7,944 nt of DNA from Treponema sp. (GTDB taxonomy: Bacteria; Spirochaetota; Spirochaetia; Treponematales; Treponemataceae): the NCBI GenBank assembly GCA_016290335.1, contig JAEETM010000124.1, positions 1 to 7,944 of the forward strand. Reading direction: 5' to 3'. Below the pieces are notes generated by a model. The model did not search any database. It was not told where the DNA came from and saw nothing but the letters and a program-made list of their open reading frames with translations. Shown here in pieces: positions 4,401-6,137 of the stretch (the stretch's first letter is position 1; each line of letters begins with the position of its first letter). The translations under genes were made by a program, and so were the position numbers.

Positions 4401-5390
4401 CTAGTAAGAATCATCATTTCCATAGAAGGCAGTTTTTGCATCACTTGTTTCAAGCCATTTAAGGATATTCTGGTTAAAGTCCTGAGCGGAGTTGTAGCCC
4501 ATATCCTTAAGTCGCTCGTTCATAGCGGCTGCTTCTATAATAATAGGAAGGTTTCTTCCCGGTCGTACAGGAATCTCTATCATAGGGATTTTTACACCTA
4601 AAAGCTCCCTGTACTTTTGCTCCGTACCAATTCGGTCGTAAGCTTTTGCCGAATCCCAGTCTTCAAGCTGAACAATAAGCTGCACTTCCTTCTGGTTTCG
4701 AATGGCACCAACACCATAAAGCTGGGAGATATTTATAATTCCCAGGCCTCGTATTTCCATGTGGTGACTTATTAATGTGTTTGCTCCACGCCCCAAAAGG
4801 GTGTTTCCGTTTACACATCGAATCTCAACAATATCATCTGCTACAAGACGATGTCCTCGTTCAACAAGCTCCAGTGCCGTCTCGCTCTTTCCAACGCCAG
4901 AATGACCGGTCAGAAAAATACCTATACCGTAAACCTCAACAAAAACGCCGTGCATTGTCTGATGAGGTGCAAAAATATTAGAGAAAACTCGTATTATTCT
5001 GCTTAAAAACTCGGTGGATGTCAAATCGGTTTGAAGAATAGGACAGCAATTTTCTTCGGCAAAGGCCCTGAATTCTTCAGTTGGTTCAAGATTGTAGGTA
5101 AAAACGCAGCATGGAATCTCGTGCTGGAAAAAAGTTTCAAGAGTGTCTGTGGTTTTGTCATGATGAAGCTTGTTCAGGTAGGCTGTTTCACCGCGTCCGA
5201 ATAACTGGACTCTGGTATGACCGAAATTTTCATAAAAACCGCTCAAAGCAAGCCCCGGACGGTTTATTTCCGGGTTAGTAATGGCTCTTGGTAAACCCCG
5301 TCGGCCAGCAATGCACCGTAAATTTAGCGCATCGTGTCCGGACAAGTCCAGTTCGAGCAAATCCAGAACAGTGAATTTCTTTTCAGCCAT
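4401..5390 (-). CDS. hprK: HPr kinase/phosphorylase
   Basis: A 329-residue bifunctional enzyme that phosphorylates HPr on Ser46 using ATP or pyrophosphate and also removes that phosphate, linking carbon and energy state to regulation. Residues 1-135 are the N-terminal domain (KFTVLDLLELDL, LNLRCIAGRRGLPRAIT). The kinase core has His147 (TMHGVFVEVYG), Walker A GHSGVGKS (162-169), the Asp-Asp pair 185-186 (VADDIVEI), the family signature MEIRGLGIINI (211-221) and IPVRPGRNLPIIIEAAAMN (273-291). All key residues are present. Start at 5390 gives MAEKKFTVLDLL, as in the family; the longer open frame to 5630 would translate an intergenic hairpin element and is rejected. There is no Shine-Dalgarno before this ATG, which fits the leaderless transcript predicted from its promoter. 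ptsH, the substrate gene, follows 26 bases on. Confidence 0.95.
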   Translation of the reverse strand: MAEKKFTVLDLLELDLSGHDALNLRCIAGRRGLPRAITNPEINRPGLALSGFYENFGHTRVQLFGRGETAYLNKLHHDKTTDTLETFFQHEIPCCVFTYNLEPTEEFRAFAEENCCPILQTDLTSTEFLSRIIRVFSNIFAPHQTMHGVFVEVYGIGIFLTGHSGVGKSETALELVERGHRLVADDIVEIRCVNGNTLLGRGANTLISHHMEIRGLGIINISQLYGVGAIRNQKEVQLIVQLEDWDSAKAYDRIGTEQKYRELLGVKIPMIEIPVRPGRNLPIIIEAAAMNERLKDMGYNSAQDFNQNILKWLETSDAKTAFYGNDDSY

Positions 5391-5396
5391 GGAATT

Positions 5397-5425
5397 ACTA
5401 TACACATAAGCAGATATTTTTGCAA
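5397..5425 (-). promoter_or_regulatory. Predicted proximal hprK promoter giving a leaderless mRNA
   Basis: On the minus strand TTGCAA (5420-5425), 17 bases, TATAGT (5397-5402). Six bases separate the -10 from the ATG at 5390, so transcription would begin at or next to the A of the start codon. The lack of a Shine-Dalgarno before hprK agrees with this. Confidence 0.5.
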
Positions 5426-5426
5426 C

Positions 5427-5455
5427 CCTATAGAAAATTAGTTCACTGAAATCAA
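5427..5455 (-). promoter_or_regulatory. Second, distal hprK promoter candidate
   Basis: On the minus strand TTGATT (5450-5455), 17 bases, TATAGG (5427-5432). It would start transcription near 5420 and leave a roughly 30-base leader, also without a Shine-Dalgarno. It is in tandem with the proximal promoter; the -10 is weaker. Confidence 0.35.
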
Positions 5456-5496
5456 TTTTTCTAAAAGTAAATAAAAAAATAGCGTTAGGGAGAGGG

Positions 5497-5679
5497 ACGG
5501 CTTTCAAAAACACTCTGATGTGCTGCCGCTTTAGCGGCAAACGTATATAATTACAAGGGCACATCAGCGTGTAGCACGCGAGCCGGCCTTCGCAGCACAG
5601 CTGCTCGGAGACTCGCTCAAAATGCTCCACAGGAGCATTTTTCCGGCTATGCCGTCGCTCCCTAGGTTTTGAAAGTCGT
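5497..5679. repeat. Highly structured MITE-like or ncRNA-like element with 13-bp inverted termini
   Basis: The ends ACGGCTTTCAAAA (5497-5509) and TTTTGAAAGTCGT (5667-5679) pair over 13 positions with one G-T. Nested inside are: GATGTGC (5517-5523) with GCACATC (5559-5565), enclosing TGCCGC/GCGGCA (5524-5539); GCGTG/CACGC (5567-5579); and AGCCGG (5581-5586) with CCGGCT (5643-5648), enclosing GCAGC/GCTGC (5592-5604) and the terminator-like AAAATGCTCC/GGAGCATTTT (5619-5641). Nearly all of it can pair, in order and without crossing. It lies between the predicted divergent promoters of hprK and hpf, in neither predicted transcript. No ORF inside is credible and I see no target-site duplication. 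It could be a non-autonomous mobile element, a structured RNA, or a transcription insulator. Confidence 0.6.
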
Positions 5680-5741
5680 AACTCGACCGGAAGCTATTTT
5701 TTTAGTATAAGTTTACAAAATTGATTTCCGTGAAATTAATT

Positions 5742-5769
5742 TTGTTTTTTCGGAAAAGCATAGTATACT
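5742..5769 (+). promoter_or_regulatory. Predicted sigma70-type promoter of the hibernation factor gene
   Basis: TTGTTT (5742-5747), 16 bases, TATACT (5764-5769), about 75 bases before the ATG at 5844. The -10 is close to consensus. It lies beyond the right end of the structured element, so that element should not be in this transcript. Confidence 0.5.
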
Positions 5770-5778
5770 TTAACAAGT

Positions 5779-5795
5779 ACCTGGCATGTACAGGT
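5779..5795 (+). other. Small hairpin or dyad at the 5' end of the hibernation factor leader
   Basis: ACCTG (5779-5783) and CAGGT (5791-5795) pair around a seven-base loop, just after the predicted transcript start near 5776. It may be a 5' stabilising hairpin or a downstream operator; five base pairs alone are weak evidence. Confidence 0.3.
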
Positions 5796-5843
5796 CTAAT
5801 ACTTTATGTATATAGAAGAGATTTTTCTTCAAAGGAGCCTTTT

Positions 5844-6137
5844 ATGACAAAAAAAATCGACGCAGTAGGATTTACCCTTGAAAAAAAGCAGTCAGAAATG
5901 ATTGAAAACAAGCTTAAAAGAATTTCTTACGCAGATGACCTTATAATTGATTTAATAATGAAAGTCAAACACGACAAGGCTTATTCGTTTGATACAACAG
6001 TAAACTTTAAATGGGGTCTGGTTGCTCACGTTTCAAGCGACGACTACGATTTCGGTGCCGCCCTGAACAAAACCATGGACCTCCTCGACAACAAAATCAA
6101 CAAAGAAAAAGAGAAGATTCAGGAGCCAAAAATTTAA
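5844..6137 (+). CDS. hpf: Ribosome hibernation promoting factor, short form (HPF/RaiA family)
   Basis: A 97-residue member of the HPF/RaiA family, which binds the 30S decoding region, blocks tRNA and mRNA and stabilises idle ribosomes in slow growth. The family pattern is visible: an early strand with GFTLEKKQSEMIENKLKRI (9-27), a central KVKHDKAYSFDTTVNF (40-55), GLVAHVSSDDYDFGAALNKTMDLLDNKINKEKEKI (58-92). It lacks the C-terminal dimerisation domain of long HPF, so it is the short type. Start at 5844 fits the family and has AAAGGAG at 5831-5837; an in-frame start at 5721 would add residues unlike the family and is rejected. It has its own promoter and terminator, so it is a single-gene unit, divergent from hprK. 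In several other bacteria hpf-type genes sit near PTS genes, and a link to energy state is plausible but inferred. YfiA versus HPF subtype cannot be settled here. Confidence 0.87.
   Translation: MTKKIDAVGFTLEKKQSEMIENKLKRISYADDLIIDLIMKVKHDKAYSFDTTVNFKWGLVAHVSSDDYDFGAALNKTMDLLDNKINKEKEKIQEPKI

Follow-up and report, generated by a model that had tools for sequence, protein, structure and literature searches.

The intergenic stretch between hprK and hpf in the window (the whole 7,944-bp Treponema contig piece analysed here) is probably a copy of a MITE-like, non-autonomous element whose conserved core is structured and likely acts when co-transcribed. For the family, mobility has good support; as to the copy in the window, the assignment would follow from homology of the core and from its own palindromic ends. 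Covariation, an excess of G-U over A-C cells, and a sense bias relative to neighbouring genes support selection on the core as RNA, short of proving it.

Two nested repeats between hprK and hpf

The element is flanked by a divergent gene pair, hprK (minus strand, start 5390) and hpf (plus strand, start 5844), and among the listed open reading frames of at least 50 aa, only the hprK frame, extended far upstream, spans it. The first-pass annotation described a single 183-bp element here, with 13-bp terminal repeats and at least six compatible nested helices, and held so much ordered pairing to be hard to explain by chance. Checked against the window sequence, all seven pairings are present: the arms 5497–5509/5667–5679 are complementary at 12 of 13 positions with one G-U, and the six inner helices match in full. 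Chance is also a poor explanation on either strand, since 5480–5690 folds with z scores of −6.35 (plus) and −5.72 (minus), with 0 of 200 dinucleotide shuffles as good in each case. While the helices are thus real, the extent is not as proposed. The inverted arms reach further out, to 5434–5509/5667–5742 (76 nt, 72% complementary), and the palindromic ~310 bp at 5434–5743 folds far better than its shuffles (z −11.28, 0 of 100 as good).

Nor is the element single. The segment 5586–5664 is absent from all 25 family A copies that were read in the genome G001; in the window copy it therefore represents a second repeat, B, lodged in a family A element. The stretch is two nested repeats: a ~310-bp element with a core of ~155 nt (family A) and a ~79-bp repeat (B) within. 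The parts are as follows.

5434..5743, plus strand: whole family A element, outer limits tentative (inverted arms, fold z −11.28)
5445..5459, plus strand: left end ACTGAAATCAATTTT, resembling the ACGGAAATCAGTTTT ends of G001 copies (read from the sequence)
5472..5705, plus strand: core match, interrupted by B (covariance model, 143.5 bits, E 1.1e-33)
5473..5483, plus strand: P1 basal stem, 5' arm AAAAAAATAGC, partner 5693–5703 (sequence, fold, helix 1)
5497..5509, plus strand: P1 upper stem, 5' arm, the previously noted terminal repeat, partner 5667–5679 (12 of 13 plus one G-U, helix 3)
5510..5572, plus strand: P2, consisting of ACAC/GTGT and CTGATGTGC/GCACATCAG, with an inner hairpin at 5524–5539 and the conserved strand AACGTATATAATTACAAG (helices 4 and 5, conserved columns)
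5574..5585, plus strand: 5' portion of hairpin P3, which lacks its 3' arm at the site of B (comparison with G001 copies)
5586..5664, plus strand: nested repeat B (absent from the 25 G001 copies read)
5667..5679, plus strand: P1 upper stem, 3' arm (complementarity, helix 3 of the covariation test)
5693..5703, plus strand: P1 basal stem, 3' arm GCTATTTTTTT (sequence, fold, helix 1 of the covariation test)
5717..5731, minus strand: right end, reading ACGGAAATCAATTTT on that strand (read from the sequence, compared with G001 ends)

The six helices are all present, but their assignment needs correction on two points. Two of them (5592–5596/5600–5604 and 5619–5628/5632–5641) lie entirely within B, and 5581–5586/5643–5648 joins an A base run to B. 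Furthermore, the family A consensus pairs GTGT 5569–5572 with ACAC 5510–5513 (columns 43–46 with 106–109), which excludes 5567–5571/5575–5579.

Taken alone, B folds modestly better than its shuffles (z −2.3, 5 of 200 as good). Matches to it, some of them partial, occur in 34 of 59 Treponema genomes; among these, G028, G045 and G048 have no family A match, and B was also seen at places where A is lacking. Other A copies carry it at or next to hairpin P3. As side observations, B is an element in its own right, ~80 bp long with three hairpins; it was found reversed and placed between P2 and P3 in one copy (L046), in the loops of other palindromes (L391, L394 and L397), and in a tandem array (L399).

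A consensus scan of 5380–5870 found two promoter-like sites, both outside the element and none inside it; an internal TATAAT was rejected as a promoter because the scan lists no site there. The hprK promoter-like site occupies 5425–5397 on the minus strand, and a TATACT box that possibly serves hpf, seen by eye and not listed by the scan, lies past the other end of the element at 5764–5769. With both outside, little effect is expected at this locus: the influence of the element between hprK and hpf should be small, and this copy is probably near-neutral. The earlier suggestion of a structured RNA with its own promoter is supported as regards selection on a folded plus strand, and unsupported as regards the promoter.

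Among the relatives found, the closest is a Treponema genome from water-buffalo rumen (L001), whose HprK is 98% identical and which gave no core match near hprK in a covariance-model search of 81 sequences. Around 7480–8010 of L001, hprK is preceded by a gene other than hpf, and similarity to the window stops near the hprK start. Treponema sp. JC4 (L025, ~7830–7950) has a GC-rich palindromic stretch of another kind between hpf and hprK.

Dispersed copies in Treponema genomes

When 5400–5780 was compared by BLAST with 80 hprK loci, relatives of two different parts of it appeared, in different places. Matches were present in eight of the nine whole genomes reached through hprK loci; G001 alone contributed 57 matching pieces. 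A covariance model built from alignment A1 (described below) recovers the window copy at 5472–5705 in the 81 sequences and places family A in 34 of 59 sampled Treponema genomes, with 1 to at least 51 matches each when the best 51 candidates per genome are scored. On that scoring G001 has 38 core matches; with more candidates scored, G018 has 80 and G220, taken as T. succinifaciens 6091T, has 34. In a sample of the phylum, 6 of 198 genomes match, two of which (G001 and G029) also belong to the genus sample. Both covariance-model surveys were run with stricter filters. The search of related Treponema genomes that had been proposed at the outset thus did find further copies, and they are dispersed.

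No Rfam family matched in the window at the gathering score; at E up to 10, four loci with copies gave eight weak matches, none of them over the element. Carriage by plasmids or phages was rejected: a search of both with one G001 copy (L116) gave no match, and viral contigs contained none to one exact pattern. A tandem series of GGAACGAATTACTCTGTCCCCTTTGTATTATA-like units, ~53 bp apart, was seen in G018 (L221, ~1460–1720).

Some copies seem to occupy the same insertion site in different genomes; L053/L052 and L095/L163, for example, have cores that are 93% and 99% identical. Of six shared-site pairs considered for constraint after insertion, one counts a single place two times and five are between genomes. 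The cores of these five are 99, 94, 93, 100 and 73% identical, against 90–92, 78–93, 77–84, 95–100 and 79–88%, in the same order, for pieces of their flanks. The result is mixed.

Structure and covariation of the core

Alignment A1 holds 35 cores, 25 from G001 and 10 from five other genomes. RNAalifold gives 47 pairs for it, and 30 of these have a compensated double change. Paired cells amount to 97.5%, compared with 84.5% for shuffled partners, relatedness being uncorrected. The covariation score is 0.347 against 0.106 in shuffles, none of which was as high in 500, again uncorrected for relatedness and in an alignment that is mostly one genome. The element is thus neither single-copy nor without covariation, contrary to the refuting condition set at the outset.

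The core is made up of P1, a long stem with interruptions; a three-way junction; P2, whose loop strand is conserved; and P3, a hairpin. In A1, the conserved stretches are the P2 loop strand and the junction (GCGTGTAGC), and P1 also contains a tandem G-A step, as seen by eye. The conserved loop strands persist where ends and stems change. Few G-U cells (8 of 1168) occur in G001, the genome that contributes 25 of the 35 cores, fewer than drift under RNA selection alone would predict. This scarcity leaves room for correction of the palindrome arms at the DNA level.

Ends, target duplications and transposase

Paired terminal ends are present in copies of G006, G058, G151 and G220, and they fall into unlike types. 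Type a ends (GCCCGAATGTCGAGTTTT, in G006) have AT-rich duplications of 5–6 bp in six of eight end pairs, a length at which chance matches are easy. Type b ends (CAGGGCAAACGCATTATA) are flanked by exact 10-bp duplications in 10 of 17 end pairs of G058 and 11 of 19 of G151 and G220 together; allowing two mismatches, the counts rise to 12 of 17 and 18 of 19. As a control, the flanks of different copies differ at four or more positions in G058 and at five or more in G151 and G220. The end type of the window copy occurs in about 20 of the 25 G001 copies, by eye, with no clear target duplication there in a flank scan, nor any found for the window copy. Pairing just outside the ends of 18 copies (61 of 144, against 52.6 in shuffles; 120 of 2000 shuffles as high) was not significant.

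A search by ends alone for an autonomous partner saw none for type a, b or c; the partner of type b surfaced only through a DDE_Tnp_1 search. A 1279-bp insertion sequence bounded by CAGGGCAAACGCATGTAA ends is present in G220 as 12 intact copies, and its 388-aa transposase is of the ISAs1 family. The first 14 bases of its ends are the same as those of type b family A ends, and 7 of the 12 copies have duplications of 9–10 bp, by eye. ISAs1 sequences occur in only 12 of the 59 genus genomes, mostly as fragments, and are absent from G058 despite its type b ends. For the end type of the window, no transposase was found in G001, whose single DDE_Tnp_1 gene has no type c ends at its flanks.

Type b ends in G220 also bound six copies of 90–101 bp, two of 149 bp and six of 335–336 bp. 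In the three long copies that were read, the P3 region is replaced by another palindrome; in the short ones that were read, most of the core is gone and the ends are intact. Since such internally deleted copies recur, movement does not depend on having the full core in cis. Separately, the core of the 335-bp copies in G220 (L270, L276 and L280) was seen to enclose a palindrome bounded by GGATGTCCAATAAGT ends, a composite that has spread.

Thirty G058 copies were sorted by their ends into 15 of type b, 6 of type a and 9 of neither. The cores on type a and type b ends in this genome share a mean identity of 82%, whereas the type b cores are 61% identical to those of G018 and 60% to those of G220, G151 and G029. 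Judged by identity, the core tracks the genome, unlike the ends. The same core on unlike ends would mean that it spreads by more than one transposition system.

Strand preference

Alignment A2 has 129 rows, of which 23 antisense and two weak ones were dropped. The remaining 104 rows hold 129 G-U and 31 A-C cells, counts in which neither cells nor copies are independent, and the direction is the same in all five genomes (5:1, 6:1, 31:5, 39:10 and 48:14). The signal is weaker by column (29 G-U against 20 A-C; in G220, 9 against 9).

The neighbouring genes were compared in two sets of copies that have six copies in common. Where both neighbours run in the same direction, the element is sense at 29 sites and antisense at 8 in the first set (71 copies, crude ORF caller), and 34 against 12 in the second (105 copies from five genomes; p 0.0016), or 33 against 14 with longer ORFs (p 0.008). 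By genome, the sense-to-antisense counts of the second set are 8:3, 6:1, 5:3, 7:4 and 8:1. Divergent sites in this set outnumber convergent ones overall (38 against 16), with the reverse in G060 (2:9). Together, the G-U excess and the tandem sense bias point to use as a plus-strand RNA.

Discussion

We propose that insertion-sequence transposases may recognise the ends of the element in trans. In T. succinifaciens, common ends and duplication length indicate that the ISAs1-family element could do so; for the end type of the window, such recognition would hold by analogy. The pairing of the core, in turn, would be maintained with a preference for the plus strand, which suggests that the core most likely takes effect upon co-transcription, forming a folded UTR or intercistronic element that could influence RNA decay or termination, for example. 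It seemingly spreads by more than one transposition system, and the window copy has in addition acquired the separate small repeat B at P3. A bolder version, which we find possible but somewhat doubtful, is that the core is a mobile functional RNA domain, selfish or useful, that swaps transposon ends, travels with unlike transposition systems and, at dozens of sites in each gut Treponema genome, supplies a leader or trailer specific to one strand.

Shape and covariation could instead have arisen by DNA processes only, such as hairpin-templated correction of the arms and amplification of subfamilies, in a plain MITE whose core has no function as RNA. The few G-U intermediates of G001 would fit such an origin, as would the copies that still spread without most of the core. 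However, strand-symmetric processes would be expected to yield neither an excess of G-U over A-C nor a tandem sense bias, and the conserved loop strands survive amid changing ends and stems; on balance we regard an origin in DNA processes only as rather unlikely. The same asymmetry bears on a bidirectional terminator or insulator, in which the A-run and T-run at the P1 base would terminate transcription either way and separate transcription units. Divergent sites are common, and the AAAAAAATAGC/GCTATTTTTTT ends of P1 occur in the window and in most G001 copies. Against this, a terminator scan found none at the window element, the run is short in type b copies (TTTT in L255, for example), and a symmetric terminator would produce neither the sense bias nor conserved inner loops, so that this role is very improbable.

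Regulation of hprK or hpf specific to this locus is hardly credible. A copy does adjoin hprK in 3 of the 81 searched sequences (the window, L012 and L016), but its orientation to hprK in the window is opposite to that in the other two, hpf is placed differently, L001 with its nearly identical HprK has no copy there, and dozens of copies lie elsewhere. A single-locus regulator was therefore rejected, given the dispersed copies and their differing orientation.

We thus return to the MITE-like element with a structured core that likely acts when co-transcribed. Family A recurs often as a non-coding repeat in the Treponema genomes that were sampled, but no Rfam family corresponds to it. That the core keeps its fold while transposon ends change raises the question of whether an RNA domain can outlive its vehicles, and T. 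succinifaciens, an organism described as apathogenic, with 34 core matches and a candidate transposase, makes this question testable.

Comparison with known systems

The first-pass annotation had offered a MITE among its readings, and the family supports this: it has terminal inverted repeats, it is short, carries no transposase gene and exists in many copies. Target duplications are seen in relatives of the window copy, and a candidate autonomous partner, of the ISAs1 family, was found for type b ends but not for type a or the window end type. That insertion sequence of T. succinifaciens resembles type b copies in its CAGGGCAAACGCAT ends and 9–10 bp duplications; it differs in its 1279 bp, its 388-aa transposase and its lack of the core, as read, and the window copy has other ends. 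In the open literature on Treponema repeats, MITEs, RNAs and ISAs1, no description of family A was found among the matches listed. A REP, described as a simple palindrome of 20–40 bp (PMC3733652), does not correspond to an element of ~310 bp with a branched core.

Judged by descriptions, family A is nearest in kind to bcr1–bcr3 and ERIC. For bcr1, a length of ~155 bp with compensatory changes has reportedly been noted. The bcr1–bcr3 repeats of the Bacillus cereus group are short, high-copy chromosomal repeats likened to MITEs (PMC3446304), often within UTRs or intercistronic regions (PMC6542083, PMC3446304); bcr1 averages 39 copies per strain, and its mobility is linked to a TTTAT motif (PMC6542083). 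Like these, as there described, family A is a short chromosomal repeat with copy numbers in the tens; unlike them, it belongs to another host phylum and has duplications of 10 bp or 5–6 bp rather than TTTAT. ERIC/IRU and NEMIS (Correia) are miniature elements that fold once transcribed and affect the stability of neighbouring mRNA, and for ERIC orientation matters (PMC2229807). They measure 107–155 bp, compared with ~215–310 bp for family A, which, likened to them by description, has in addition a core with a three-way junction that is carried on unlike ends.
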